In this document: in pieces, positions 2,279-62,700 of the stretch | Layout: the number at the start of each line of letters is the position of its first letter | How positions within the stretch are numbered: position 1 is the first letter of the stretch | NCBI RefSeq assembly: GCF_000003815.2 | Contig: NC_049982.1 | Location: 19,462,496-19,526,495 of the forward strand | Length of the DNA: 64,000 nt | Source of the DNA: Branchiostoma floridae | Taxonomy: Eukaryota; Chordata; Leptocardii; Amphioxiformes; Branchiostomatidae | Reading direction: 5' to 3' | Position numbers and translations under genes: made by a program | Notes under the pieces: generated by a model | Database searches by the model: none | The model's input: only the letters and a program-made list of their open reading frames with translations | Told to the model about the DNA's origin: nothing

Positions 2279-9796
<7,518 letters not shown>

Positions 9797-37300: not shown

Positions 37301-37778
37301 TGTCTGCCACGTTTCACACAAACTGTCTTACCTTCATAACAACGCTGCTGTGATACTGGCTCCTGTCGTATTCCCACCCTTCAGTGCAGCCCGTGGTACT
37401 CCTATTTCTGTAGTCCCATCCACTCTTACAACCCACAGTAGTGGTGGTGCCCTGTTTCGAGTCCTCAGGACACTCCATGGTAGTAAAATTCCCAGAGATG
37501 ATTTCTCGGGTATATTTTCTACAGCTGCTAAGCCTCCACGTTCCGCCCACCTCTTCCATCGGGATGCTGAAGTTCAGCGCGTCGGGCCAGGTCGTGTTGT
37601 AGGCCGAGACACCTGTTTCAGTCACACGGCAGTGGTGAATGGGGATGGCGCCGATGAACGTCATGACGGCAATGTGCAGCCCAGTTTGCATGGATCCCAG
37701 GACCAGTAGCAGTGCTGTTCGTCGCTGAAATGGACCGAAATCTCCAAGATACTGTAGAATCGCGTCGTACTCCATCAT
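31387..37778 (-). CDS. SLC22-family organic ion transporter (9 exons)
   Basis: Exons: 37778-37332, 35090-34987, 34505-34351, 33897-33729, 33447-33190, 32890-32640, 32260-32152, 31872-31663, 31522-31387 (1839 nt, 612 aa; all GT-AG, frame consistent). SLC22 proteins are 12-TM major-facilitator carriers of organic cations, anions or carnitine in the plasma membrane. Seen here: YDAILQYLGDFGPFQRR at the N-terminus, FIGAIPIHHCR, a large cysteine-rich, N-glycosylatable extracellular loop, QYHSSVVMKYDLVCERAWLR, LSDRYGRHRTLL after TM2-3, ESPRWLL (296-302) after TM6, and LPETHGVPLPNTLQDGENF at the C-terminus. The start is the first of two adjacent ATGs (MMEYD), the usual SLC22 position; an upstream frame has no ATG. 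It is about 50 residues longer than typical members. The subfamily (OCT, OCTN or OAT) is not resolved. Confidence 0.93.
34570..34725 (-). repeat. tRNA-derived SINE-like fragment in SLC22 intron 2
   Basis: Read on the minus strand it has TAGCGTAGTGGTTAGCG (A-box), then about 45 bases later GGTTTCGACTCCCGG (B-box), and a second GGTTATCGAACCCGG further on. A clean acceptor stem is absent, so a tRNA-head SINE fits better than a tRNA gene. Boundaries are approximate. Confidence 0.5.
36029..36920. mobile_element. Non-autonomous TIR DNA transposon, copy 2 (892 bp)
   Basis: It lies in intron 1 of the SLC22 gene. It has the same ends and near-identical interior as 11429-12302, in the same orientation, again flanked by TTA (36026-36028 and 36921-36923). 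High similarity to copy 1 implies recent movement. No intact transposase frame. Confidence 0.87.
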
Positions 37779-37985
37779 GGTGTTTATTAAACCACGGATG
37801 TGAGCTGCCGAAGAATTGTCTACGGAGTCCAAAGGTCGCTCAAGATAAACAAGTACCCTGTCACTACGCCGTAGCGAGACAGTTAAACCACAGGGTCGGT
37901 GTTCTCTATTTTATTGGGCACGGTATGCGCCGGGTCACGGGCTTACCCCGTTACATTGCTTTACGTTTATATATATAATTGAATA

Positions 37986-40785: not shown

Positions 40786-43700
40786 ATGCCAATAAGTGAC
40801 ATGGCTAGTTCTGACGAGGAACAGATAGCGATAGTCGGGCTGTGGTGCCGGTTTCCAAACGCCGACGGACCCGACGACTTCTGGAGAGTCCTTGTGAACG
40901 GAGAGGATTGTGTAGAGGTACTCTGTCTTCTCTAGCCTTGTTTTTGTACTATAACGTGAGACGTGTAGGATGACACACAACTGCATGCTGTATGCACCAT
41001 TGTAGAATTAGTAAATGTATTTACAGTTCAGTGATGTATGCAATACTGATGATTGTTGACAGCATAATTGCCGGGCCTTTTGTAGTTACTTCAAAGGGTG
41101 GGGTGTTTGAAAGCAGCCGGGCGTGCAGCCGAGGCATGGTAGTGCTTGGATATTGCGCATGCGCACACCGATTAAAACACCGTACTTCTTGTAGATTTAT
41201 TATGTGGGAGGTGGATAAGACAGTTCACCTCCGTTGTTGTTATTGAAGGTTTCAAGAATATCTTGTAACGATACGAACAATAAGGTTTTCCCTAGTTCGT
41301 TTGCTCTGGTTCTTTTAACAACATATCGACGAATTTGTTTAAGATTGGGTGTGGTTACCCACACTTTATGCTACTTCATGGCATGTATGTCGGGGTTAAG
41401 CACAGATGCATTTACCTTTTGTGGTAACAGCCTGTGGAGTGAAGACAATGAAAAAATGGTGGAAGAAATTAAGATTTAAAGAAAGATGCATATGTTTGGG
41501 GCTATAAATAATATTGCAAGAAAAGCTGACATCTTATATGTCTTACTCTATATTTAAGTCTGAACTCACCCCTCCCCTCCTTTACTAGTTTCCTAGCTCG
41601 TCAGTACAAAATACTGTTTTATGTGTCTATTAAGGAGCTCCCACCAGACCGTAGGAGCCAGGGCGCCTTGTACGATGCCAACGAGAACACTACTGTAACA
41701 GGAAATAGCTCCGTTGAGAGGGCAGCAGTTGTGAAGGGGTACCAGCTTAAACTATCATTACAAACTCCATGAGCAGGGAATGCGTAAAGCATGTATTCAA
41801 GCATGAAATTTCCTCAAGGAAACAGTATCTTGTCATTTTTAAGTTGACAGTCATGAAGAATTTGTGGATAAAATCGGCACAAGAAAAGTATCCATATAGC
41901 ACCCTCATGATACAAATGCTACACACAGAGTCGTTCTATTTTGTCCTGGTGCAGTGTGACGATAAAACATGAATTGATAATAGCGTACACTGCTTGTGTA
42001 ATATCTTATCTCTTACGAATGAAGCCAGTCCAACGTAAGCGTACGTTCACAACTTCTATCTGGAGACTTCCCTTACAATATGAACACTTTCACGGTTGAT
42101 ATCACAGGTACAAGGAATTCGACCCTGGTCTGTTCGGAATGACGCACGAAGAAGCATCGCGGATGGACCCCCAGCAGCGCTTCATGTTGGAGTGTTCGTA
42201 CAAGGCGTTTGAGAATGCCGGCATCACAATGGAAGACCTGGACGGCAGCGACACTGGTGTCTTTGTTGGTCAGTACAGTAATGTGCCTTCATACTACTTG
42301 TCATCTCTTTTTCTGTCTGTATTTGGCATGTTATGCATGGAGTCAACTTTTAAGGCCGAAAAATCTCCCAGTAAGTCTTGGGTCCCAATTGATTGCACCA
42401 GTGCCGAAGCGACATACTTGTCCCGGTGGAATGACGGATGTCGATGTTCGCCACGGATAGGCCACGGCGTCTATTTAGTACCCGGCCACGGGTTCATTTT
42501 AAGTCCGATTTCAATTCAACCCGGTGCCCGGCCGGGAGCCGCAAAATGTCCAATGGGTCCACGAACTGAACCAGTGAACTGCCCGGCAGCGGCCAAGGCC
42601 CCGCTTTCCAATGGGACCTAAGCCTAAGCCATAATAACGAGGTAATTCTTTTCTCAACAGGAGCAACACATAGCGATCACCTATCAGAGGATGACGTAGA
42701 CCCGACCCAGGCAGGGGACCCTTCCATTTCTGGAGCGGCCGCGTCTCTCCTGGCGGCACGTGTGTCCTACACCTTTAACCTGACCGGCCCGGCACTGACT
42801 GTGGACACCGCCTGCTCGTCAGGACTGTACGCCGTACATCTCGGCTGTCAGGCCATCAGGACAGGTGACGATTTAAGCCATCGTTATTTTGTTTGCAAGG
42901 CCATGTTGATTTGATTACATGAATGACATTCGCTTTGGGGTTCTCAGTGGATGTCATCCATATAATCATATCAACTTGTCCTAAGGACAGAAGAAATATT
43001 TACTTCCTGACATATTGAGGACGTTTGACAGAAATGTTTGAAAATTATATAATAGAATTAATATTCTTTAGGTGACTGTTTCATGGCCGTCTGCGGAGGT
43101 GTGAGTTTTATTCGCCAGGAGAAGATGCTAGAGCCGCAGTACCGGGCAGGCACGGCTGGTCCCGTCGGGCGATGTAAGCCCTTCTCCGCGGCAGCTGGCG
43201 GGTACGTGCGAGGGGAGGGCTGTGGAGTCGTCGTGCTGAAAAGGCTACAAAGAGTAAGTTTATCACTTTTGTTTAAGTCAGTACTCAGCAAGTCCATAAT
43301 AGAATCAACTCACGCAACATTCTGGTCCACTCTTAGCATGAAAGTTTTTCCTTTTCCTACATAAAGCCTGATTTTCTAGTTGCCATCATTTTCGATGATA
43401 GGATATGTACAATCATTGAAATTCAGAGATAGTTGAGGATAATACTAATGAGTTAGCCTTCGTCTATCATGTGAGGGAAAAGATTGTAAAAAAATACATA
43501 TTTGATCAATATCCATGTATCATCAATTCATCCAGGCGTTAGAACACAAAGACCACATCTGGGCGGTCATCCGGACGGGAGTGAACCAAGATGGCCGCAC
43601 CGCCATCCCCATCACTGCCCCATCACAGACCCAACAGGAGGAATTACTCCGCCTTGTTTACGAACACCACAAGATCGACCCACAAGACATCGACTACATC

Positions 43701-46700
43701 GAGGCTCATGGAACTGGCACTCCGGACTGGGACACAGTGGAAGCTAGCAGCCTGGGTAATAACATAGGCAAGGCGAGAAAGCCTGGCGATCCCCCCGTAT
43801 TACTAGGTTCGGTTAAAAGTAACATTGGACATCTGGAGTCAGCAGCCGCTATGGCGGGAATCATCAAGGTTCTCCTGATGATGAAGCACGAGAAAGTCGT
43901 GCCAACTCTTCACTTTCACGAGCCGAACCCAAATATTGATTTGGACAGTCTGCGTCTATGCGTGCCAACGGAAGTACAAGATTGGCCACTGCGAGGGAAG
44001 GACAGAAGATTAGCCTGTGTTAACTCCTTTGGATTAAACGGTTCAAACGCCCATGCCGTTTTGGAGCAGCTACAGCTTTCAAGGGACGGCAGCGATTATG
44101 AGGAAGAGGAAACAAAAGACACTGTTGTGGCCTTATCGGCGAGAAAGCGGGAATCTCTGAGATTGGCAGCTGAGGATCTTAACGACTACTTGCGACGCAA
44201 CCCGGGCATATCAGTGCAAAGGCTTGCCTACACATCAACAATGAGAAGAACCCACCACGACTACCGACTAGCAGTATATGGTAGCTCGGTTGAGGATATA
44301 GAACGATCCCTGACGAAAGCATTAAATGAGATTGAAGACAGACCCGAAACCAGAACCGAAAGACAAACTTCACCTGTCAGTTATGACTTTGAAACAGACA
44401 AGCGCGTCATTTTTGTGTTTGGTGGACAGGGAACTTTGTGGGAGGGCGTCTGTCTGGACCTGATGGACAAAGAGTCGGTATTTAGAAAAAAGCTAACTGA
44501 AATAGATTCCCTGTTTGGGCAGTACGTGGACTGGTCCTTGCTCAATAAGTTGTCGAACAGAGAAGATTTTGACGTGCCGATTGTAGCTCAGGCTCTGATT
44601 TTCAGCACGCAGGTGGCACTATTTGCACTTTGGCAGTGGTGGGGAATCACTCCGCACGCCATTCTCGGGCATTCCGTGGGAGAAGTCGCTGCGGCACACT
44701 GTTCAGGTGTCTTGTCGCTACCAGAGGCCGTGCGTGTTATCTACCACCGAGGACGCCTCCAAAATGAAACCCGGGCCGGGAAGATGCTCGTTGTGGGTAA
44801 CCTTCCCATCGAGGAGGTGGAGGAGCTGTGTAAAGGTGTGTCGGGAGACCTGAGCGTGGCTGTTGAGAACAGCGCCACCTGTTGTGTGCTGTCAGGCGAC
44901 AGGGATGCCATACACAACATACATGAGCTGCTGAAATCGATGAATGAAGAGAACCCGACTAGGCAGCTGTTCCTGAGGGAGGTCCAGGGCGTTAAGTTTG
45001 CTTACCACAGCCATCACATGGAGCCTGTCCGAGAGGAGCTGCAGGCATCGTTGGCCGACCTTACAGGACACCCGCCGGAGGTGGAGCTGTATTCTACGGT
45101 GACGGGAGCGAGAGCCACTCCGACAGACTTCGTGACTGGAGACTACTGGGGCAGAAACGTGAGGCAGCGCGTGATGTTCAGAAGTGCCATGTCAGAATCC
45201 CTACGCCCGGAGAAACACAACGTGGTGGTCGGAATCGGACCAAAAGCGCCAAAAAGAAGTTATATCAAGCAACTTGCGGCGAACACAAAGCTAACTTACG
45301 TTGCGTCCGTTAAGCCGAATCAAGAATACCCGACCATGCTGCAAGGTCTCTGTGAGCTGTATCAGGCCGGTTTACTACCAAGATGGGACTCTTTGTTTCA
45401 AGGTCGAAAGTACACTCCATATCAAGTACCGAGGTATCATTTCGCTCGGAGGCTGCTCTGGTCTAAGACAGATAAGACTCTTGCAAGAAGACAAGATTTG
45501 GGAGTGAAATGTGTCTCCAGTCCCACCACACACCCTTTACTAACCCGGGTTTCTACAGATCCACTGCAGTACGAATGCCTTATAAGCAGGCAGAAGATGC
45601 CGTATCTATATGACCACGTCCAGGACGGCACGGTTGTTGTTCCTGGTGCTCAGTACTGTGATCTGGGGATCGCCGCGTGTATGGATGTGATATTCCCGCG
45701 GCAGCCTGTCTCCAGTTGCAGGACAAGTGTGACGTTTCTGACATCAGTCACCCTGCCAAGCCAAGATGGCACAGCCGTTATCCGAGTCATGGTCAATCAC
45801 GACGAAGCCGCCAAGAAGGTTCATTTTGAACAGCGAACGGACCGAGATGTCCATGCGAAGGGCACAGTCATCTATAGCAATCGGCAGCAGTCCACCATAA
45901 CCAGGCTTGACATAGACGCTATACGATACCGCTGTAATAATACCATATCTGGTGATGACCTGTATGAAGCGCTACAAACAACTGGCTTACAATACGGACC
46001 TACACTGCGTAGACTGACGGAATGTCGCTACGGAGAAGGGACGCATGGAAAGGAAGCCATGGCCGTCATTCATGTCCACGATACAGTAGCAGCAGAGATG
46101 CACAGCTGCTGCATACACCCTGCTATTCTCGACTGCCTGATGCAGACTTGTTTTCTACTCGAGTTCAATATTCTGCGTCAAACAAACGGCCGACGCCTAA
46201 AATTCTTCCCCGTCTCCATCGAAAGTCTTGTTGTGGTAAGACCTGTCGAAGAACACATGTGTATGTACATGAAGCAGACTGGCGGAACACCAGGGACAAT
46301 CCGATCAAACGGTGTCCTAGTGGGGATGGACGGGCAGGTCATCCTGGAGCTGAGGGGTCTCACCTTCAGGATGTGCACGGACGGCAACTCCAGCAGTTTG
46401 GAGGACTTTGTCTTCACCACGACGTGGACGGCCGCCCAGTCTCAGTGGGGAGGAGAGGTTGAGCCAAAGCTCGTCAATGAATTCTGTGAGCTGAAATGTC
46501 TGGTACTACAGGATGACTGTGGGATATCCAACCAACTGGAGCCTTTCGTCAGCTCCGATTCTGTCTTCATCTCCCTAGAGGACTTCAAGAGGACTGACTA
46601 CCGAAACGACGAGAGCGCGTTTCCAAAGTTGTTGCAAGAAATGGACGTGAACCTGAACTTTGACTTTGTTCTGCACTGTTGCGGTATATCTCAACTGGAT

Positions 46701-49286
46701 CCCGAAAAGTTGGACGCGGAAGCGCTGGATACTCGTGTGGAACTAGCGTGTGCAAGTCTTCGACAGGTCATGAAGATGCTGATCACAGACGGGAGTAGGG
46801 TCCCTGTTAAAATCATCACGCGCAATGTGCAGTTCTCCATGTGGCAAGAGTCGCTAGATAGTGACGTTGACAGCGCCTGGCATGGTCTGCTGGATCTCGC
46901 TGGAGCGCCTCTGTGGGGTTTGATCCGCTGCGCAATCAGAGAAGGGGCTTACCCACTGCTGCAGCTTGTCGACTTGTCTTCGGGCAACAATTACGAGATA
47001 TATACCCTTCTTCACGAGCTTGTCGCACGCGAGTTGGAAAGCTACACGGAGATCATGTGCGTCCAAAGCGTGAAGTATTACCTGGAGATTGTGCCCTCCA
47101 CACTTCGCAGTGAGTCTACCATGCATCGAATCAACAATGCTGAAGAGGGATGCAGGCTGAAAATGCAGACTACAGGTCCCACAAAACCAGTAAATATCCA
47201 CGCAGTCTACAGCAACAAGCATGTGGAATCACAACCTGGGCATGTCATGGTCAAGGTGCAAAGGTGTCACGTTCAGCCAGAAAACATGTATGCAGTTACC
47301 AGTGAAGCACAAAACGGGTATGTCATACACTGGTCACATGACGCCGACCACGGTTGGGACTTCCTCAGCTTGGACTTTGTGGGAACCGTGGTACAAGTAA
47401 CCCCGAAGTGCAAGTTTCGTCTTGGTGACCGCGTCATCGGCGTCTTCCCTGCTGTAGCGTCCTCTGTCGTCTCCCTTCCCGTTTCAGTAGTCCAGAAGCT
47501 GTCAGACCTCCCACTGTTACAGAACCAGCCCTGTCTGTCGTACTTTGTTTTGGCCTGGGAAATTCTGGTACACTTGCTGGACATCAAACCTAAACAGAAT
47601 GTTTGTTTGTTAGAGGAAACTACAGGCGCGCCTTCTGTCATGGCAAGAGTCATTGAAGCCGTAGCACTGGGTTTGAAGGCCATCTGCTACATAGCACAAG
47701 ACGTTTACAGTCTATCTAGCGTTAGAGGGGGCGTGGCTGTTGTAATCGGAGGTCTACATGCGCCCCTTAGAGCCCAGCTGGCAGATGTAATAGGCAGGAA
47801 TGGAAAAGTAGTGTGTCTGTGTGGTCAGAACCAGCAGACATCTGCTTCCCTCAGAATCAGGCCAGATGTCAGAGTTTTGATAGTCGACACAAGCACAGTG
47901 TTTCACGAGACGAACTTAAAGATGATCATGCCAAATGTATCTAAACTGCTATCGGTACAGTTTCAAAGGAAGTTGAACATCGATCTCCCCTATACACAGA
48001 TCCCCTTGTCCTCGTCCCCTCACAAAGTCGGTCTTCACGATGTGGTAACAACAAGTAGGGCAGAAATCCCCGTTGTCGGTTTCGGCGTACAGTCTGAAGA
48101 TGGGTTACCGGGTACGCCAGTCATCTGTGGGAGAAAGGCGCTCTTCAGGCGTGACGCTTCCTACGTCATTGTCGATGGTCTGACTGGTCTGGGCTTCTTC
48201 ACTATCGAATTCCTTGCTGAGCGGGGAGCGGGGAACATCGTAACCGTGTCCAGGACTCAGCCACAGGCGGACACAGTCACGGAGCTGAGGCGCGTCGGAG
48301 AAAAGTACGGATCAAAAATCATCTGCCTCGTAGCTAACGTCACATCGTACAAAAGCATGACCGCTGCATTGGACAAACTCAGAGACTGTCTTCCCGGCAT
48401 TCCGCTGAAGGGCGTTTTCCTCAGCACTGCCGTCTCCAGTGACCGCATTCTGATCAACCAGAGCCACGCTCAGTTTAAAATGGGACTGGACGCCAAAGTG
48501 GTGGGTACCTGGAACTTGCACCTCACGACAAGACACCTCAACCTCGATTATTTCGTGTGTTACTCATCCATGTCCTCGGTGTTAGGCACCGGTGGGCAAA
48601 CAAGTTACGGGGCGGCAAATGCTTTCTTAGACGGCATCGCCTGCCTTCGTCGTCAGATGCACATGGCCGGTCAGAGTATCAACTGGGGTGCCTTGCAGCT
48701 GAAGACTCTACAGAGAGACAAGAGGATGGCAAAAATCTTGGAGCAAAATGGAATCCGAGATTTGTACAAAGACAGAGTTTCAGAGTGTCTGGAAAATTGT
48801 CTTCTTCTCAATCCGGTTCAGCTGTTAGTTGTTGATCTAGACCGGTCCCGGCTGGCGGCCATGGCGAAACGGTTCCCGGACGTCCGAAGGTTTGAAAAGC
48901 TTGTAAGTGACATTGATGATGTAACAGCAGATGACGTATTGTTGAGCACAGCGGTTGACCTTGACAGATTGGGACAAATGAGCGAGCAGGGCAGACGGGA
49001 GGCGATTGGCGCTTTGACCCGGAACGTGTTTGTCAACCTTCTGAACGCGGAGCCCGGAGATGTGCACACCATGCAGAGGTCCGTCGTTAACATGGGCATG
49101 GACTCACTACTGGCACTCACCGCGCAAAACATCTTCAAGAACAAGTTTCAAGTGGACGTTCCTTGGATCGCCCTGCTAGGCAAGAAGTCAACAATCGAGT
49201 CTATCAACGACCAGGTCTTCGAACAGCTCAATAAACGAATTAGTGAGGGGCAGCCAGTAGCATTTGTCGGAAGAGACGTCCACTGA
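40786..49286 (+). CDS. Animal type I iterative polyketide synthase (6 exons, 2177 aa)
   Basis: Exons 40786-40917, 41635-41738, 42108-42268, 42661-42864, 43072-43253, 43536-49286; 6534 nt, all GT-AG. Domain order: ketosynthase (Cys184 in DTACSSG, His319 in EAHGTGT, His360 in NIGHLES); acyltransferase (Ser641 in GHSVGEV, then YHSHHMEP); dehydratase (His955 in [10 protein letters not shown], Asp1127 in [10 protein letters not shown]); a structural ketoreductase half ([12 protein letters not shown]); an enoyl-reductase-like region (about 1480-1780) with a degraded nucleotide site; catalytic ketoreductase (TGLG near 1809, Ser1938/1939, Tyr1952 in TSYGAANAF); acyl carrier (Ser2118 in GMDSLLAL). There is no thioesterase. 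The architecture is that of reducing animal PKSs related to fatty-acid synthase, such as sea-urchin pigment and fish pks1-type enzymes. Cytosolic; builds an acyl chain on the carrier from malonyl-type extenders. The product is unknown. Start: first ATG after an in-frame TAG; a second in-frame ATG lies 15 bases on. Confidence 0.95.
42899..42981. repeat. 83-bp deletion derivative of the TTA-target TIR transposon (copy 3)
   Basis: In intron 4 of the polyketide synthase. It consists of little more than the two inverted ends (GGCCATGTTGATTTGATTAC ... GGATGTCATCCATATAATCA) of the family at 11429 and 36029, with several mismatches; no target duplication is readable. Confidence 0.75.
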
Positions 49287-50796
49287 CGGGAGACATCACA
49301 AGAGACATAGAGGTAAAAAAAAAGATGTTTCCCCTCCCACATCCATTTAAGATATACCGATATACTCTTTGATTTGTGCAGTGATGTTGAAATATAGACA
49401 ACACTTGTAAGTAAATCAACCGGTACCGTTACTGAGCTGCTCTTCCTATCACAGTTCGAAGACATGAGAAAATTATCCTTGACTATTAAAGACAACTTCG
49501 CAGCGAAAGAGGATATTCTACATTATTTTAGTTGTGCGGTATTCCAAACATCTATCCACTCATAGATACAACAGTGACGTTTTTCCTTAATTTTCAAGCA
49601 AGAAAGTGCGGTGGCATAAGATAGTATCATAGGCTGGGGATGGGACTTGACCGGCAGAGCTAGAGGGGTTTTATTCTCGGTGGCCGGCTGCCGGCTAAAT
49701 CCCTTCCCCAGCTTATGATACTATCTTATGCCACCGCAATATCTGCTTGGAAATTATTTTTTCCTATCGAATTTCAGAAAATTCCACTTGAATGACCTTA
49801 CAATCGACCTGGAGAACGACACGTTGTTTCAATGCGAAACGGACAGAAATGCGGACAGAGAATGGCGAGACTGAGTGGGGAAACAGCGGGCCGAGCCTCT
49901 GGTGATAAGGGTGCAGTCACACGAGCGTGACTGTGTATCAAGTCCGTCCGACATTTTCATACGCATGCGCTGTCGCCCAAACAACGCGCACCTCACACGC
50001 ATCTCAGTCGCTTTGTGGCAGCGTGTATACGAGCCAACACGCATACCTAAATCTGTTCAATGAAAAACAATTGAGATGCGTATGAAGCGCGTATTGTGCG
50101 TACGAGTGCGCATGTAAAAAGTCAATACGGACCTGACTGTCAATTGATCAAAGAGAGAATCCAATGTTGATAGAGTAGTCTGTGATGACTATATCGAATT
50201 TGTTTAGTACATTGTTATGTATCATGTACAGTGGAACCCTGTAGATAACACAGATAATATTTTGAACTGTATCAAATGTTAGATGACTAGATATTGGATT
50301 TCAATAGAAAGCAAATGTACATGTGTTAATCAAGTTCTGTAAGTTCTACGTGGCACATCAACTATCAACAACTGCTGTCGCTTTGTTATTTCTTGCAATG
50401 AAGTTAACAATACTTGGATGTGCATTGTGTATACATGTATATTGTATGCTGTCGACTGTATCTTATCGTTGATAATTTTCCATAGATGAAGCATGTAAAA
50501 AAATCCAGTAATAACGGCCAAGCTGGCATAATGAAATGTTCACATGATAAAATGAATGTATTGTTTTTTGTTGTCTTATCGTCAAATGGAGAAAGTTACA
50601 AATTTGTTTACTTGTTATGTTGTGTGCATTTGAGGGATCCCTTCCCAACATAAGGTACGCTTACAGATAGCATAAAATTGCTGAGTTGTGTGATCTGAAG
50701 CTTTATTGACAATCCGAATTCGACTGCCGCTTATAAGACACACTCGTAGTTGGAGTCGTTTGGCTCGTATGTCTCCAGGGTTTCTTGGTTCAAGAC
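49287..50796. other. Intergenic region between PKS and stathmin-like gene (convergent 3' ends)
   Basis: Both flanking genes end here. Apart from a hairpin MITE (49617-49738) and CG-rich GCATACGCATGC-like sequence around 49960-50110, nothing coding is seen. Confidence 0.5.
49617..49738. repeat. 122-bp hairpin MITE downstream of PKS
   Basis: Arms of about 34 bases: TGCGGTGGCATAAGATAGTA then TCATAGGCTGGGGA, mirrored at the right end with one mismatch (TCCCCAGCTTATGATACTAT then CTTATGCCACCGCA). The loop is about 55 bases. Flanks show no clear target duplication. Confidence 0.8.
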
Positions 50797-52651
50797 TCAA
50801 TTCTGCTGCTCCTCTGACACAGGGCTGAGGTTGCTGCTGGCCGCGAACATGGCCTTGACAACAGTAGCGTCCGCCTGAATCTGGGTGGGGAGAAGGGGTG
50901 CATGGTCAGGATTCAAGCGAGAGATTCAAACAAAGAAACTTATAATTCTTTTTCACACGTCTCCGTCAACTCATAATATATTTTAAGAAACAAGATGACT
51001 CTTAGTTGCAAGCTTACGTTGTACACGAAATACATTGTACCGTTGCAATTTGCAATATTACCTACCTACCAACCTACCTACCTACCTATTCCATTGACCT
51101 CCAGGTCGTTGGGGGGGGGGGGCAAGGTAGCCATCAAGATAGAGATCTAGAGTTGCCTCCAGGTTCGTCTTTCCCTAGCCAGGGTTAACCTCTCCAGGGT
51201 TACAATGTTACGTACATATAAAATATGCACGTATTTTGCTTCCACCTATACATAAGTGTCATACCTTGCGGTGTTCTAAAGCGTCTGCCTGACGCCTCTG
51301 TAGGCCATCCAAGGAAGACTTCTTCGCCACACGGGCCTTCCTCCAGGCCAGCCGCTTCTCCAGGGCCTTCAACTCCCGGCTCTCGCGTGTAGCAATGACG
51401 TCAGAGTCACTCGCAGACGTCAGGGCGACAGGTGTCCCAGATGACTTCTGCTCAGCTGCACGGTTTGCAAGTTTGCGGGATCTTTCTGTCAGAATCTCCT
51501 GTGCAAATTACAGACTATGGCTTGCAACTTACCCTGGATATACCCGCATTCCAGGGCTTATGTGTAGTTTAAGTGCAACTTGCAGGTTTGCCTGATCGAT
51601 AGCTTTCAAGCTGTACCGCAGACTAGTGCCCAAACGAAAAAAGACATACCACCGAAAGGTCCAAACTCGATGTTGGTCATCGACGCACCGCAAAGGTATC
51701 GATCAGACAAACCTGCAAGTTGTACCGAACTACACATATCCTAGGCCCACATAAGCCCATTCTGGTACAGTTGAATCAGAAATCTAGCCTGAGTACCCCC
51801 CCCCCCCCCCCCCATTGGGTTCACTGGCTTAATCCTTTCGCTTGCTAACCAAAGGATTGAGCTAGCGGTCACCGTAGTACGACCGGAGGATGGTACGGCC
51901 ATCGAAAATCACTCCACGAAAATTCGAAACCGTGATTTACCCGTCTCCTGACGTCTGCGTTACTGAGCTGTCTCTCCAGTTCAGTCCCTGACCCTGCCGA
52001 TTTCATCTGGAGCTTCCTCCGCTTCTCCTCCAGCCTCTCCTCCAACTTCTCCAGCTTTATCGGGCGACGCGACTGACGCTTGGACGGAGAAGTTGGCTCC
52101 TCGGCCGGCACATCGAGGGCCACGGAGTCCCCCTGACATGTCAGAGGTAACACACCCTCTTCTCGCAGCTGAACTAAAACGTCGGATGACGACTTGCTCG
52201 GCCTTGGCTGGGACATCGGGGCAGATGGACACTTTTTCACTGGAACCAAAGGCATATGTTACATTAGTTAATTGTCCGATGTGTATATAAGTGAACGATT
52301 AATATCGTATAAGTGCCGTTAACTTGTGTACTCGGTCAAATCGAACCATAGTCAGTATTAATCAGCACATTTATGTGTATCATAGTCAGTGCACTATCGC
52401 TGTACATGTGTTGACCGTGACCATGGCGCAAGTTCATTGACGGACTCCGTTCAGACCGACCGAGCGTTACCTGTGTTGTCTCTCTGTCTCGTTTCCTCCT
52501 GTGTAGCATCTACAGAAATATCCTCTCTACCTTCCTCGGCGTTTGCAGAAATCCCCTTTACATCTCCTCCTGTCTTCTCATCTCCTGGATACACCTTTCC
52601 GTCCTTAGACAGGCACCAACAACTCGCTAGCTTTAGTAAGAAATCCCGCAT
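50797..52651 (-). CDS. Small stathmin-like coiled-coil protein (STMND1-like), 4 exons
   Basis: Exons 52651-52471, 52239-51941, 51498-51265, 50880-50797 (798 nt, 265 aa, GT-AG, frame consistent). The N-terminus MRDFLLKLASCWCLSK has a Cys-x-Cys (11, 13) like the palmitoylated start of SCG10-type stathmins. A segment SSSDVLVQLREEGV (77-90) resembles the SSDIL-like stretch of stathmin-domain protein 1. It is followed by a charged helix KLEKLEERLEEKRRKLQ (122-138), ELERQLSNADVRRRQE..., and a second basic helix (ALEKRLAWRKARVAKKS). Stathmins bind tubulin through such helices; here both the assignment and tubulin binding are inferences. The first exon could be extended by an unseen upstream exon. 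It shares a head-to-head promoter region with NOP14. Confidence 0.6.
51555..51738. repeat. Inverted-repeat element in intron 2 of the stathmin-like gene
   Basis: Left arm TATGTGTAGTTTAAGTGCAA then CTTGCAGGTTTG; right arm CAAACCTGCAAGTTGTACCG then AACTACACATA. About 42 paired bases with few mismatches, loop about 95 bases. A long poly-C run (about 51797-51813) follows. Confidence 0.65.
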
Positions 52652-52741
52652 GGCCGCTGAGCGTTCGGCCGTGACGACCTGTTCAGCAGCCCCGGGAAAC
52701 TTGTTGTTCTATAAACACAACCATGTCAGTAGAACAACGAC

Positions 52742-53110
52742 GTCATAAACGGTTAAAAGGTAGTGCGGCTTGGGGTCTTTTCAAAGAAAACAAATGGAAA
52801 AATTTAAGGTTTGGGTTTTCTTGATTCAAAATCTAATGGATCTGACTCGGTATGGCTAACAAAATCCAATCGGGTTCACCCTAAGTCGGCTAGAATCAAA
52901 CAAGTGCGTCGATGACTTTAGACGTGCTTCGCGCATATCTCGCAAGGTGGCGCCATTGATCGGTGATTGACCCCAACGTGACCCCAAGATGGCGACTGAG
53001 CGCATGTGAGAACATGCTGGCTACTGTTTGTGGAAGCTTTTTCAGAAAATTACGGGTCCTCGGCAAATATCCTGATCATCCGGACTTTTGTAAGTTACTG
53101 TTTGGCCTTT
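52742..53110. promoter_or_regulatory. Head-to-head promoter region of the stathmin-like gene and NOP14, with YY1 motif
   Basis: CAAGATGGCGAC at 52985-52996 matches the well-known YY1 element (CAAGATGGCGGC) found near starts of ribosome-biogenesis genes. AGGTGGCGCCATT lies 40 bases upstream. A donor-like ACTTTTG/TAAGTT near 53090 could end a non-coding first NOP14 exon that would splice to the acceptor at 53712 (TATATTTCAG). Confidence 0.5.
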
Positions 53111-53385
53111 TCTGTTTCCTCTTGTAGTTTAGGTAGGCGGTAGATGCGTAGGAATGCCGCACGTAAAGCCAGATTTGCCAACATGTGCTCTGAAACAGTT
53201 GGTCCTGGAGAGGGAGGGGGCTCAAAATTATAAGAGAGAAAAGCACGAACCGTGGCTTTATATTGACTCAGTTCGGGGTTAAGATCATTGTCATAAATGG
53301 TTTATGTCCATATGTGAAAATAGTATACGCACGTTTGTGCAATGTTACGAAGTCTTTCGAGACACTGCTTTTCAGAAATTATATA

Positions 53386-53640
53386 GCTACGGCCGCGTGG
53401 CGCGTTGGTACACCCGATCCCTCGATCTCGGAAGTTAAGCAACGCGACGGTCCGGACAGTACTTGGATGGGGGACCAACCAAGGACGTCCGAATTGCTGT
53501 AGCCTCACGAAGTTTCCACGAAATCGTCTTCCGGGAGGGACGTAAAACGGGGGTCCCGTGCTCGAGGAGGTGCCTCGACCACAGCCTCATTACTCATACT
53601 GGGTACCTACTGGCTGGCAAAATACACCAGATGATATAAA
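53386..53640 (+). repeat. 5S rRNA-derived SINE (SINE3-type)
   Basis: 53386-53504 is recognisably a 5S rRNA: paired ends GCTACGGCC and CTGTAGCC, CTCGGAAGTTAAGCAA (box A region) and ACTTGGATGGGGGACC (box C, 53461-53476). It has many substitutions in the middle and is followed by a non-5S body containing GGGAGGGACGTAAAACGGGG and GGTCCCGTGCTCGAGG. A 5S head with an unrelated body is the structure of SINE3-class retroposons. The 3' limit is approximate. Confidence 0.8.
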
Positions 53641-53744
53641 GCACCGGGTACCGTGCATAAGATATGATTTAAGCAATAATTGTGAACACAATGGCAATGT
53701 ATCTATATTTCAGAAATTGTTCCAAGGAAAGAAGCACCTCCAAG

Positions 53745-56700
53745 ATGAAGCACAAGCACACGTCTAAAGCTGACTTTGTGCGAAAGAATAAGAAGAAAGC
53801 ACAGGTGAGATTTCAGGACACCTTAAATGTTACAAATAGGTACAGTATCTAGCTTTGTAAGATAAATTACTTACATGAAAGGAGAAAAAGTACTATACAT
53901 TACATTTTGTGTGCCACATAATTGCTAACATGGTAAATATTGTCATATTCATGCTTTTTTTGAATGGTTGGTTTTCAAACCCTCAGAAGGAATCATCCCC
54001 CTACATATCTAATCATTTGGGCTGTACCATCTGATTTTCAGACTGATGTTAAGTCCAACCCCTTTGAAGTGCGGATCAACAGACAGAAGCATAACGTCCT
54101 GGGGAAGAAGCTGCGCAGGTTTGACAAGGGCATGCCGGGCGTCTCAAGGTCAAAGGCCATCAAAAAGGTCAGTCTAGTCTTCATGTGTTGTGATGTGATT
54201 GAATTTTCTATGGAATTACCTATTGTTTTCTCTTCCATGAGTAGATTGTAGAATGCAATGACAGTCAAAGCGAACTATAACTCCACTGTTTTTCATCATT
54301 TCCAGAGGAAAGCCACCCTTCTGCAAGAGTACCAGCAGCGAGACAAGCGGAACCAGTTTGTGGACCGGCGACTCGGTGAGAACGACCCTGAGATGACGTT
54401 GGAAGACAAGATGCTGCAGAGGTTTGCCATGGAGAGGAAGGTACATGTAACATAATCATCAACATTACATCAAATAATCAATGGAAAGGATGACAAATTT
54501 CAACATGGGTACATTTGTTTTGAAAATAATTTCATCAGGTTGGCAGGATATAGGAGAGTTCTTTTCCACAACCAGTAGACATCTTCCTCAGAGCTTCTGA
54601 CTGGAGTTCTGCTTCTCACCGCTATAAATATATAAGAACTCCAGTCAGAAGCTCTGAGAAAGGTGTCTGAGAAACATGGAAAAGTAAGCTAAATAAGTAC
54701 GTACTGGTTTAGTGGAAAAGAATTCTCCTATATCCTATGTGTACATTTGTTCAGGTTGTAGTTACATTGCAGCCCATGATCCCTGTTGACTCTGTGTATT
54801 TTTGACATATGTACATTTGTAGACTCACCATGAGAAGGCCGGTGCCTTCAGTCTGAATGAAGATGAGGAGTTGACCCACTTCGGCCAATCCCTGTCTCAG
54901 ATTGAGAAGTTTGAGGAACCAGAAAGCGATTCTGAGGATGATGCCACTGGAAAACTCTCAGGTACCATGTTTTTGTCATTTTTTTTACCCTTAATTGTTC
55001 ATGTGAAATTATTTTTACAATATGATTGGACTTTCTAACAGTAATTCAATCAATAGACAGGAGACCAGGGCTTCAATGTACTCTATCAATAGTTGTTATC
55101 AAAACAGTTTAAGTAATCTTTGTCCTATATAAACACTGGCTTATGTCTACTGAGTTATTTCGAGTGAGCTTAGACTTTCTGAAATTTTTATTTTGAGATT
55201 GGTTTAGTGATTAATGTTCCCTTACAGGTGAATATGTGAAGGAGGCTCATTTTGGAGGGTTTCTGACCAAGAAAGCATCAAAAGACAGTGGGGAGGAAAA
55301 GGTATGTTGTACATTGTGCAAATTGATCAAAGAAATTTAAGAAGTCCACAAAGACAGCCTGAAGGATATTATGTACTAGTATTTTAGTCTCATTTGGTTG
55401 CCACCATTTTGTGTGTTTGTTTGATTTTGTTTGAACCTTTGTTTATTCACTCTGGCCAATGATATTATGCATCCCCTCCCCCACAGTCTGACAAGCCAAA
55501 GTCAAGACAAGAAATGATAGAAGAAATCATTGCTCAGTCCAAGCAGAGAAAGGTACGTTTTTTTGCATTACAAAATAATGGTGTAATAGAAAACCAGTTA
55601 CTAAGTACTGTATTATGTAGAAAAGTCTGTTTCCTTGTAATTTTAAGCACTTAAAATCAGTTTGTATCATAGTGTTTTCAACAAAACATGTAAATTAATG
55701 TTATGACATACATGTATTTCTAGATTGAAAACTTGTTGTAACAAAGTTAATGATAACATGGTTGACTCCCCATCTGTTATTATAATCAGCATGAGCGTCA
55801 AAACCAGAAGGAACAGACTGATGACCTGAGGGAAAAACTGGACCAACAGTGGACAGACCAACTTCACATGCTGGTCAAGAAAACAAACAAGAAGGAGGTG
55901 ACAAATATATTTTACTCGAACTGTTATGTTTACTTGTAGAATGTTAGATAGTACATCATAGTATGAAACAAGAAGCTTCAAGTTCAGTGTAAGGCAGACT
56001 ATTCTCATTTGCATGGCAAACCTTTGTTGTATTAAAGCATAAGGAAGAGGAAATATCCCCCCAAATGTACATATATTATCAGTGAATAATCTTACATTAG
56101 TGAATAGTCTTTTGATCTCATTCATGATGGCAGTAATGCATTTTTGAAGGAACAAGATGTCATCATTGATGTTTTGCGGTTGTCCAGCTTTACACACTTG
56201 AAATTAGCACATACTTTAATCAGGGCTGATGCAGTAGGACCCAGTATTGATGATACTGCTGTGGGGTTCCCTGACACTGGTGGGCAGCAGTTGGCTAGTC
56301 TTCACACCGCGCTTCCAGACAGTTCTGCTCAGTGGGTCCACGCTGGTGAGGCATATCACAATCATGCTCATGCTGAATGTTATTGACTATAACTTATAAG
56401 CAAAGTTGACACCATGATGACTATATCCTCCACAGTCACAGCCCAAGGAGGACAAGGTCAAGCCTGAGGCAGATGACTATGACATCATGGTGCGAGAACT
56501 TGGTTTTGAGATCAAGGCCAAGGTGAGTCATTAGCTAGTTCACTTCATTCTCAAGTTCACAAGAAACTGTTAGTTAAAAGGTTTTCTATAACCTCTAGCA
56601 CAATCAATGAGGAGGAAGGGTACAATGGGAAAAACACATCAATGTCTATATGTTATCACTAAGTAAACACATGGAGATGATATGTAAAACATTTTTTGGC

Positions 56701-59700
56701 TTCTGTAGATGCCATCAATTTATGATCAGATTTAAGATATATTTGTTATTTTTTTATGGATTTGTAGATCTATTGTCACATACAGAACTTGGTATTGTTT
56801 TGACCTACCAAGGGTGGCACAACAGGGGGCAACGACTAAGTCTCTCTCTCTATTTCAGGCTTCTGACCGACTGAAAACAGAAGATGAGCTAGCCAGAGAA
56901 GAACAGGAGAGATTACAAAAGCTGGAGGTGAGTTTAAATGGGCAGCAATAAATAGCACGAATACAGGTTTCTTTGATTAAAAGAAGTATTGAGAGAACTA
57001 TCAGAAGTAAACACTAATGATCAACACTTGTCCATACGTTGTCCTCTTACAATCCTGAATGTACAGGTGAAGTTGTTTTATACCCCCCTCCCCACCTAGG
57101 CTGACAGACAGTTGAGAATGAAAGGTCTAACCCAGGAGGACATCAGACAACAGCAGCAGAACAGACATGTGTCTGCAGATGATCTGGATGATGGGTAGGT
57201 CTAAGTTTAATGATACTTTCTACATGTGCAAAGTATGTCTTGATTTATACATGTACACACACACACACAAACAAGCACACACACACACTCACAGACAAAC
57301 ACTCAGAAAACATAACCGTCTTGGCATGGGTTGTCAGATTTTTCTTTGGTAAGCAATGCATGATTGTAGAATTTATTAATCATAATTTATTCATTTTTAA
57401 GACACAGTTTGGACTCACACATGTACTTGAAAAAACATGGTCCCAGATAAATGATGTGTTCTGTGAGAATGTGGCTTTCAAATTCATACATTTTACTTAG
57501 TTTGACACATTGACCCAACAGGTTTGACTTCATCAGACCAGAGAGACTTCAGCTAGCCTACAAAGATGGGAAGCTGTTACTGCCGGAAGGAAAAGAGCTG
57601 ATGCCATCAACTTCTGGTACATTGATCTCCATCTTCACTTTAATGGAATTAATAGTGTTTACATGACATGTATATCATTATGCTGCAGCAGCTCTTGCTT
57701 GCCAATATATGTTACATGTAAACTTAAAAGTATAACATGTATATGCGTTTGACTGTTAAATAAACTATTTTTTCTTCTTCACTTTCTTGCTACACAGATG
57801 CAGATCAGAAACCAATCAGAAGGAAGCATCATAGTGAGGCTGCAAGTGGATCTGAAGCTGACCAATCAGAAGATGAAGACAAGGAGGGTCATTCTGATGA
57901 AGAGAATTCTGACCAATCAGAAGGCGAGGGCAGTGACCAATCAGAAGAGGAAGAGAAAGATGATGATGGCTCTGACTTAGAATCAGAGAGGTCTTCAGAC
58001 AATGATTCTGAGGAGGAACAAGAAGAGGAGGAGGAAGACATTGATAATGAAGGAAGTGAAGAGGAGGTAGAAGAGGATAGAGAAGAGAAGGACAAGAGAG
58101 AACAGAAAACTCAAGCAATGGAGAAGACAAGTATATCCAAAAAGGTACAAACTCCATTTCTCTTGTACATGCAGAGTTACTGTACTATGTGTTTATCTTC
58201 AAAAGGCTATATGATTATCTATATGTATCTGTATGTGTTGCTACTGATTGATTTTAACAAAAAAATATGTTCTCTAATATTTTCTTTCAGGAAAGAAAGG
58301 CTATAGCTGAAGCAGCCAAAACAGAACTTTCCTTATACTTTTAAAGGTAAGATTTAGATAAGTTATTTTGCTTGAGTATCTCTTCCTGTACATACTTGTA
58401 TATCAAAAGCACTTTACACTTCCTTCGGTTTAAAGAAATGCTCTTTTGTTTGAAATGTTTCCCAGCACCAGAGTCTTTGAAAGACCTTATGGAGCTGCTG
58501 GAAGGACAGTCGTATGACAGACAGCTACTCATCATGAACAGGATAAGGAAATGCCATCATCCTAGTCTGGCGGAAGGTAACAGGAAAAAACTGCAGGTAG
58601 GGACACCCGATTCACACTGTGGTGTCTTTTTACAACCTCCTTACTTATTCCATATCTCCTTATGGACATTTTGGATAGTTCCAGTTGTAACGGCAAATAT
58701 TCATCTTTTCAGAATCTGTTCTCTATCTTGCTGGAGTACTTTGGAAAGCTGGCCAATCAGAGCCCTGTTGCCATGGAGATGATTGATGGGTTAACCATGT
58801 GAGTATCTGTTGTTTCCTCAGGTCTGCGCTATGAAAATACTGGGCTTGAAATACATGTACATATGCATTTTTGTGCACCCAAAATTGGACCTGTGCAATT
58901 TTAACTAGCGCACCAGTATAACAAGATAGTTATTTTAGCTGTATAGGGTTTACGTACATAAAAGTACTTTACTCTTATATATCATATTCTTGAATTTAAG
59001 GGGGTAAAATTACCATAAAGATAAAGGAATTCATTGGGAGGACAGCGTGCAAAATACCCCCTTGCACACTTGCACATTGCAACCACTTTTTGCTTGGTGC
59101 AACTTACTTCTAAGCTCTGGTTGCACAGGGTGCAACTTAGATTTTGAGCCTCAGAACTCTATTTTGTTGTCAATTTACTTGATTTTTAGTTTGAAACAAA
59201 CATGCTTGTAAGTAAATGATATTAAAAGGTTATGTATTTTTTTAAGAAATTAGTGAATTGTAGGTGGTGCAACTTGAAATTCAGTTGTGCAACCTAGATT
59301 TTGCCCCAGGTTGCACAGTCTGCAACCTGGCTCAGAAAAGTATTTTGTACACTGGAGGACAAACCGTAAGAAAAGTTGTGTCATAGAATATGGCAGATGA
59401 TTCCCAGTCTTCTCCTTGTCCAGCCACCTGTATGAGCTGGCCCAGCAGTCCCCAGGCCCTTCTGCTGACACTGTACAGACTGTGCTGAAGAACAAGTACC
59501 ACAAGTTTGACTCAGTCTGTCAGAGGAAGGGGAGGGCCGTGTATCCTGCTGTGGACACTGTAAGTCATGTTTAACAGTCTTTCTTTAAGTTTTATTTGTT
59601 TAAGCTACAGTTGATGTGTTGGATACTTTAAAGGAGTTTTTGTGTGCCCATAATTCAATGTTGCAATCTCTTGTATTCTGTGATATCTTGAATATAACAG

Positions 59701-62700
59701 TTGAACTAAATCAACTTGAAGTTGACTTCCTCACAAAGCTAGTGTTGATGTTCTTCCCCAGCTGTTGTTGTTCAAGCTGGTATCAGTGATCTTCCCCACC
59801 TCAGACTTCCGACACAGTGTGGTCACCCCGGCTATGTTGTTCATGGCACAGATCCTCACAAAGGTTGGATAGAAGTTTAATTTGTATACTACCTTTAAGG
59901 CCTGAAAAAATGCATTACTGGTATATCATTTTCCTCTTGCTGAATTTGTTTTCAGTTTTACTGGTGTATGTGCAGAGCTTGCCATATCCAATGTCCAAGT
60001 CTTGCATGTAAGCGTAGAATTGTATGATTATACTGACTCTGATCATTATCGTTGTCAATGAGGGAAAAATTACATTTGATAGCAAAAATTACATGACATA
60101 TACCTAATATCTCCCTTCAGTGCCCAGTGACTTCTGGGAGAGATGTTGCCTGTGGACTGTTTGTTTGTACAGTCTTTCTTCAGGTGGGTTGATAATGACA
60201 TTGTACATTTTGTAAGTATGCACCCAAGGTCTAAGGTAAGGTTAGGGCTACCTTATATTGTTATTACATTGTTTGAAAGACACTATAGTGTCAAACATAC
60301 ATGTATAAAACATGACAATCAGTCCAACAACATTGTATCCTGGTGATTTGTGTGCAAATTTGGAAGGATATATGTTAAACATGGATGGGAACATTTGGAT
60401 TTGTTTTATATTTGTATGCATTTGTGTGTATGTGTGTGTGTAGGCGCATGGGTGCGTGTGTGTGTATGCAAGTGTGGGTACTTGCCTGTGTAGCATCTTA
60501 GATGTGCTTTTTTCCGTTCCAGTACGTGTCGCTGTCCAAAAGATTTGTACCTGAAGTCATAAACTACCTGCAAGGGCTTCTCTACCTTGCTGTAAAGAAA
60601 GAATCTAGAAAAGGTATGGCCCTATTAATGTATGTTTACTAAGATAAATGTAGTAGTAGAATCTATTGAGACATCTTGTCCTTCAATGTTCTTTTTGTTT
60701 TTATCTAAAAAGCATTATGACCATGCACACATGAACATGTATAATGCTAGCTTGTACATGTTTGTAGGCTTACACAAGAAAGAACTGCCATTCATAAGTT
60801 GTCCTTGTTAACTACAAATATATATGACCCTGTAATGTAAATACCCGGTACATCATTCTCCTGAAATTGTACATTTGACTGTTTCCAGCTGTGGCTGCTG
60901 AAGTGGTCCCACCTTTCAAGCACACCGGTGCACAAGGAAACCTACTGGTCCTACAGGAACCAGACGACTCGGGGTGAGTTTTGTGTACAGGGGGTTTGTG
61001 TTATGTTTTCTTCAAGTTGTGAATAGTCAGGTTGTGTGTCAGGCTAAAACAACAACATACAGATTTGTCTATTCCCGTAGTTAGCTTGTCATGTGACTTT
61101 TTATTGCCAATATATCTGCCAATTTACCATTGCATTTTGCAATTTCATTTTCTCCACTCTACAAGTAAAAGATACATTGTGCAAAACTGTAGACTCTTTT
61201 TTTCCTAGGTCTATGAGTATCGAGCCCTTGCCTTTGGACTATCTCTCCAAGAACCCAGTACAGGACACAGACACTGATGACTTCAGGTAAGGACAGTCAA
61301 GTCACAGGAATGATTTATGTGTCAGAAAAGCCAAGTTGTGTTCATTCATACATTATTAGACATGTTTTACTCTATTGTTGGTTTACCACTTGTTTTTGCA
61401 ATAAAANNNNNNNNNNNNNNNNNNNNNNNNNNNNNNNNNNNNNNNNNNNNNNNNNNNNNNNNNNNNNNNNNNNNNNNNNNNNNNNNNNNNNNNNNNNNNN
61501 NNNNNNTATGAAGGAACTTGATGTTGTCCCTTTTCTCCAGGATAAGTGCCACTCATGCTACTCTTCAGCTCACCAATATGTTTGCAAACATGTACAAGAA
61601 TCTCCCAGCATTCCATGAGATTTTCTCACCAATCAGTGACCTGCTGTCAAAACACCTGCTGTTGGCTGCCTATCCACAAGAAGTACAGGTAGGTCAAAGT
61701 TGATAGCTATCTGCATGAAGCTTTCTGTGTTTATTGGATATAATTTTAAGATTAGGTCAGTGTACAATCTCTAAATCTAACTTGTTGATGTTGTGAGTAT
61801 CTATCATGACAAGAATCAATACAGTAACTTTATACTTTGTAAAATCAGACATTTTCAACACGAACTACATGTTCAGGCGCTTCTGCATTCTAAATACAAA
61901 TACAATCTACTTTGTCAGTTATCTTAGTGCCTTATACATATACATGATGTAACTGCTAATTCTGCATGTACCCGTATACAGCGTTCCCGCCAGGTTCTTG
62001 AAAGTATGCGTCCAAATATTTGGGAGGGGCGTAATGAGCGCCGAAGGCGCGAGACGAGCGCCGCAGGCGCTCGCATTCTAGGGGGGTCCGGGGGCATGCT
62101 CCCCCAGGAAAATTTGGATTTTCAAACCCTCTAGAACACAATTTCCTGCAATTTGAGAGGATAATCACGCACTTGAGATTGGATGTCGGTTGCCTCTTTT
62201 ACTCCCATTTTTAGTTATCGACGACCACCCTCTTCATCAAAATACGTTATATTAAGAAAAAAAAAAAAAAACTATCGCCTTCCGTGATCTGGCCCGGGTA
62301 TTATTTGTCCAGACATGTCTACATGAAAATTTTGGATTTTTGATGCTTCAAAACAGGACTCTAGCCAGTTCGTCAGCCCATGGAAAAATTCTGCCAATTT
62401 TTTTCCGTCATTGAAAAAAAAATGTCTACCTCGTGCGATCGATGTTGCGCCCTCCCGCATCGAATAGTTTTCCGAGACGATAAAATAACGGCGCCATCAC
62501 ACTTTGTGTTTTTTTCTATTTTGCCCGATGATTTTACTCAAATTTTTCGAACCGGTGGGGTTTTACAAGGCCTTGCCGTCATTTTCCACGAGCGTGCGTT
62601 TGTTTCCTGCGACCTCAGGTAACCCCGTTTTCGGCGTGAAATCTTTGGCTGGATTTCTTTTTAAATAGATCAAGAACGTTATACATTACTCGAAGGAGAA

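Follow-up and report, generated by a model that had tools for sequence, protein, structure and literature searches.

A Branchiostoma floridae polyketide synthase gene with a probably structural enoyl-reductase region and private changes in its ketosynthase and ketoreductase sites

Introduction

Polyketide synthases (PKSs) are large enzymes that assemble small molecules from acetate units, and to our knowledge few animal PKSs have known products. A PKS gene of Branchiostoma floridae, located at 40786-49286 on the plus strand of a 64-kb stretch of DNA (the window), raises the question of how far such an enzyme would reduce its chain and how the chain would leave it. The original prediction described a complete reducing PKS with an inactive-looking enoyl reductase (ER) and no thioesterase (TE), which would make an unsaturated, polyene-type chain. 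One lancelet genome contains four related copies; the ER is silent in all of them and an additional C-terminal region is present in three, which makes them a compact set for comparing reduction and release.

Results

Gene structure and domain organization

The focal PKS is one gene that fills the predicted span exactly, from an ATG at 40786 to an in-frame stop at 49284-49286. It encodes a protein of 2177 amino acids in six exons, the last of which is 5.75 kb long; all introns are GT..AG, and neither stop codons nor frameshifts occur across the 2177 codons (Table 1). A search of the genome (513,431,437 bases in 431 contigs) yielded three paralogs, L007, L008, and L009, with 59, 58, and 43% identity to the focal PKS, respectively, and their exon ends agree with those of the focal gene where they were found. 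The paralog exon 2, which was found in L014 only, matched the exon 2 assigned here best within 40900-42200. The focal gene is therefore real and intact, and it is backed by three paralogs of the same genome.

The domain order was determined to be KS-AT-DH-structural KR-ER0-KR-ACP (KS, ketosynthase; AT, acyltransferase; DH, dehydratase; KR, ketoreductase; ACP, acyl carrier protein; ER0, the ER region). KS, AT, DH, and KR were matched by Pfam, and the Pfam matches of the ACP were weak and under their cut-offs. All residues at the positions that we take to be catalytic (KS C/H/H, AT Ser, DH H/D, KR K/S/Y/N, and ACP Ser) were present, as originally predicted. No methyltransferase match was found in the structural KR stretch.

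Table 1. Exons, domains, and altered sites of the focal PKS in the window
Feature	Position	Strand	Remarks
Exon 1	40786..40917	+	Start codon, KS N-terminus; exon end agrees with 2 of 3 paralogs (L014, L016)
Exon 2	41635..41738	+	KS, with strong divergence; PPDRR where the paralog has PPDRW
Exon 3	42108..42268	+	KS; ends agree in 3 of 3 paralogs
Exon 4	42661..42864	+	KS, DTACSS with active-site Cys; ends agree in 3 of 3 paralogs
Exon 5	43072..43253	+	KS; ends agree in 3 of 3 paralogs
Exon 6	43536..49286	+	KS end, AT, DH, structural KR, ER0, KR, ACP, stop
KS C-terminal domain	43572..43919	+	Pfam; HGTGT and NIGH histidines
Altered KS stretch (12 residues, compared with 12 in the paralogs)	43701..43736 (approx.)	+	KS motif reading GTGTPDWD
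AT	44409..45251	+	Pfam; GHSVGE and AYHSHHM
DH	45531..46391	+	Pfam
Structural KR subdomain	46398..47114	+	Assigned by position
ER0	47115..48122	+	GroES-like half recognizable at about 47232-47438; Rossmann half unrecognizable
ER stretch of 15 residues	47607..47651 (approx.)	+	Site of the GGVG motif in working ERs
KR	48156..48695	+	Pfam; catalytic K/S/Y/N retained
Asp for first Gly of KR NADPH motif	48174..48176	+	IVDGLTGLG vs VVGGLTGLG
ACP	48993..49244	+	GMDSLLAL; weak Pfam matches

The focal PKS is flanked by OATP transporter exons at 14994-15452 (-), by what is presumably an SLC22-like transporter at 37317-37910 (-), which had no Pfam match, and by NOP14 exons at 58351-58779 (+). A 5S rRNA match (52 bits) lies at 53385-53505 (+), about 4 kb downstream of the gene, and a run of N at about 61.4 kb of the window falls inside the open reading frame 61217-61618.

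Further PKS loci were seen in the genome. On contig C9, the partial copy L010, interrupted by two stops, sits about 10 kb away from the intact L008, and L011 is an open stretch consisting mainly of acyltransferase. In the L007 gene, the real PKS exon 2 has a further, partial copy of itself next to it, at 3308-3349 (-) of L014. The KS parts of L025 and L026 (C1, 15.87 and 28.87 Mb) are nearly identical and 13 Mb apart on one contig, reflecting either a recent duplication or an assembly effect.

Loss of the ER nucleotide-binding motif in the whole clade

In the ER region of the focal PKS, only the GroES-like ADH_N half was matched by Pfam (E 3.4e-4; 21.3 bits against a cut-off of 23.5), and no zinc-dehydrogenase Rossmann match was found. 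The predicted lack of a glycine-rich NADPH motif was thus borne out. The same motif was missing in all four members of the paralog clade (the focal PKS, L007, L008, and L009), among which ADH_N was detected in two, at E values of up to 1, and a Rossmann match in none. A profile built from the four ER regions matched the ER of the CurF PKS (E 2.5e-4) over the GroES-like part only. On the other hand, five further PKSs of the same genome, L020-L024 (contigs C4, C1, and C11), retain an intact GGVGQAA, and as positive controls ADH_zinc_N was detected in L020 (1.9e-17) and L024 (2.5e-22). Because the Rossmann match failed in four of four members while other PKSs of the same genome matched clearly, the loss of the motif is real and clade-wide. 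A lesion private to the focal PKS was therefore rejected, and the inactive-looking ER, though supported, is not special to this gene. Methyltransferase domains were confirmed in L020 and L024, the two of L020-L024 that were scanned, and L022 is split over two frames.

The ω values between L007 and L008 were 0.28 and 0.38 in the two ER0 halves and 0.04-0.25 in the other domains. The ER0 values are the highest, yet they are well below one, and they thus fit a retained structural part. For the focal PKS, dS against the paralogs was saturated in the ER0 Rossmann half and in the ACP, so that no ω was obtained for either, and purifying selection on the Rossmann half is accordingly shown between L007 and L008 only. 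Most likely, ER0 is a remnant with a structural role.

Absence of a TE and of the C-terminal AMP-binding region

The check for a downstream TE exon was carried out by a six-frame Pfam scan of 49287-54002, and no TE was found. A TE was detected at 4.9e-21 in L045 of the same genome, which served as the positive control; L045 (C1, 28.876 Mb) has a KR-ACP-thioesterase-condensation order and is PKS-NRPS-like. A hidden TE exon within 49287-54002 was therefore rejected, in support of the predicted absence of an in-cis TE. L007, L008, and L009 did not show a TE either.

Unlike the focal PKS, these paralogs carry a C-terminal extension. In L008 and L009, Pfam detected an AMP-binding domain downstream of the carrier protein, in matches that span a portion of the profile, and the extension of L007 aligned to this AMP-binding region. 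When the paralog C-termini were queried against the whole window, no trace of the region was found: the one match with an E value below 0.1 was the ACP tail (49170-49262), and the rest were at chance level. In a tree of 21 KS C-terminal sequences, the focal PKS grouped with L007 and L008 with a support of 0.87, and L009 lay outside (0.997). On this grouping, the AMP-binding region would by parsimony have been lost on the line of the focal PKS. The description of the PKS as complete overlooked the absence of the C-terminal region of the closest paralogs. A genome search with the PPTase profile (PF01648) gave no match; it was made exon by exon and is thus uninformative.

Private changes in the KS motif and the KR cofactor site

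The unusual reading GTGTPDWD of the KS motif, which usually ends GTGTxxGD, proved to be real and private to the focal PKS. Its glycine is replaced by Trp in the focal PKS. Gly stands at this site in all 24 other aligned rows, among which three row pairs are overlapping loci of single genes, and in every other Ketoacyl-synt_C locus of the genome (14 of 14); L007, L008, and L009 read GTGTPVGDP. A sequencing error was judged unlikely because three adjoining codons differ in sense from those of the paralogs. A change of KS GFGG to GLNG was dropped as a notable change, since relatives vary there too (GISG, GMGG, GFTG, and GAGG). The count of private KS changes was likewise rejected as a mark of the focal gene: over 62 columns, with exons 1 and 2 left out, it was 3 in the focal PKS versus 0 to 9 in eight others. 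Among the four paralogs only, the focal PKS had 22 private changes in 217 columns versus 5, 8, and 55.

The KR of the focal PKS has Asp in place of the first Gly of its NADPH motif. All 17 rows that span the sites (one further row did not), including L007, L008, and L009, have Gly there. Gly also occupies this site in the mycocerosic acid synthase sequences of the PDB alignments. In addition, a conserved KR His, present in 17 of 17 rows, is Leu. The KR Pfam score of the focal PKS was 146 bits, compared with 179 and 182 bits in L008 and L009. The KR catalytic tetrad is intact, including SYGAAN. The catalytic residues were thus as predicted, and the change of the cofactor Gly had been overlooked. 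The altered KS and KR sites and the putative loss of the AMP-binding domain are features private to the focal copy that the original prediction had missed as such.

Evolutionary rates

Three-taxon rate tests were performed on the last exon with L009 as the outgroup, and private changes are given as focal:paralog. Overall, private changes were more numerous in the focal PKS (164:119 and 165:118). A focal excess was observed in the AT (39:18 and 41:16) and the KR (31:14 and 33:15). The ACP (11:4 and 11:3) and the DH (27:17 and 28:20) leaned the same way with no clear significance, and no focal excess was seen in the KS C-terminal part (12:19 and 10:16), the structural KR, or the ER. The Tajima p values are uncorrected for the eight domains; the AT excess survives Bonferroni correction, and the KR excess does not. 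The ω of the focal PKS against the paralogs was 0.10-0.20 where dS could be estimated, and that of the KR was 0.13 and 0.17 at a dS of about 2, which is near saturation. These values suggest that the AT, and less surely the KR, evolve faster in the focal PKS, a pattern that would also fit a gene losing function.

Discussion

The focal PKS is probably an iterative type I animal PKS of the chordate kind and not a fatty acid synthase (FAS), with a structural ER0 and no in-cis TE. Its AT would load malonyl units, and its KS would extend the chain iteratively. Lying between the structural KR and the KR, ER0 would be retained for its structural role and would carry out no enoyl reduction. If the KR works, the KR and DH would leave conjugated double bonds, and the chain may then leave the ACP by spontaneous ring closure or with the help of a separate enzyme. 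The KR and KS substitutions may cripple steps on which this reading depends. The extent of β-ketone reduction is uncertain because the KR cofactor motif is altered, and, since a polyene needs a working KR, the Asp at the cofactor Gly and the additional private KR changes make the product class less certain. Of the predicted polyene, the premises of an inactive ER and no in-cis TE stand, but the product itself is less certain than was stated: it would be one possible product only, and a pyrone or aromatic that closes by itself is plausible should the KR be impaired.

It is possible, though rather unlikely, that the enzyme is functionally non-reducing, the Asp in the NADPH loop blocking ketone reduction and leaving the DH idle, so that a pyrone or aromatic forms as a poly-β-ketone cyclizes away from the enzyme. 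The Asp and the Leu at positions where 17 of 17 rows have Gly and His, the lower KR Pfam score, and the KR private changes all point this way, as do SpPks1 and CrPKS, which are described as TE-less with aromatic products and a KR thought inactive (PMC11414698). Their lesion is a different one, however: they lost the catalytic Tyr, and the focal KR retains its full tetrad. The low KR ω, read with the near-saturated dS, and the failure of the KR excess under eight-domain correction also speak against an impaired KR. An impaired KR would result in a chemistry resembling that of SpPks1. A fuller version of this scenario, which we regard as improbable, holds that the gene became non-reducing on its own line by dropping the AMP-binding region, losing the KR Gly, and reshaping the KS HGTGT loop, and that it releases its own pyrone or aromatic in convergence with the echinoderm pigment synthases.

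The drastic substitutions private to this KS and KR, the loss of the AMP-binding region, and the overall excess of private changes would also be expected of early decay, in which the frame is still whole and the enzyme is weakened or dead, and L010 with its two stops is a broken relative. Such decay is quite unlikely given 2177 codons that are free of stops and frameshifts, splice sites that are all GT..AG, and ω values of 0.10-0.20 where dS is estimable. That the enzyme is FAS-like and reduces fully, by an ER that has diverged yet still works, is very improbable indeed: the GroES-like half is still recognizable and ADH_N was detected in two of the four clade members, but a GGVG-like motif and a Rossmann match occur in none, and the ERs of L020 and L024 score strongly.

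Animal FAS and the FAS-like EcPKS1 share the overall domain order of the focal PKS. Two traits of animal FAS, an intact NADPH-binding ER and a C-terminal TE, are absent from its sequence. In a phmmer search with the last exon, mycocerosic acid synthase scored 363 bits, EcPKS1 252, and FAS (2vz8) 232 among the best 60 of 234 matches, so that the focal PKS scores better to a bacterial PKS than to FAS within these matches; the KS tree, from which vertebrate PKS sequences are absent, groups it with three PKSs of its own genome.

With KS and AT plus DH, KR, and ACP in one chain, the focal PKS agrees with the definition of an animal type I PKS in PMC4604110. In that paper, most vertebrate PKSs are given as KS-AT-DH-KR-ACP without a TE, and sea urchin PKS2 is given with one. 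Medaka OlPKS matches the focal PKS in its domain list and in having six exons, and its KS, AT, DH, KR, and ACP residues are needed for otoliths (PMC4604110). Judged by sequence, the focal PKS, like PKSs of the OlPKS kind, has neither a functional ER nor a TE. Zebrafish pks1 is drawn with a medium-chain reductase region (PMC6531356), which is perhaps the same silent ER, and polyenes are described as products of a bird PKS (PMC10764717). As far as the published descriptions go, OlPKS and zebrafish pks1 resemble the focal PKS in lacking a TE, and OlPKS in its six exons; the altered KR and KS motifs are the focal gene's own. Since the ER motif is lost in all four clade members and TE-less PKSs have been published, the two headline features are ordinary: missing ER activity and a missing TE are normal for the PKS family and add little to published knowledge, and the architecture is that of an ordinary chordate PKS.

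For B. floridae, PMC4604110 tabulates 13 PKS genes with similar architectures (KS-AT-DH-KR, with AMP, with MT-ADH, and with TE-C), and the table has no detail of ER0 or the KR loop. Titles and abstract starts, covering few subscription papers, held nothing on the focal gene or on lancelet PKS function beyond this table. The private KR and KS changes offer a specific, testable prediction. In PMC11414698, the echinoderm enzymes SpPks1 and CrPKS, TE-less like the focal PKS, release their product in vitro, and SpPks1 needs no more than KS, AT, and ACP to form an aromatic. Both are drawn with a pseudo-methyltransferase, whereas the focal PKS has no methyltransferase match, and their KR lacks the catalytic Tyr and is thought inactive, whereas the focal PKS keeps the Tyr (SYGAAN) and has lost the Gly of the NADPH loop.
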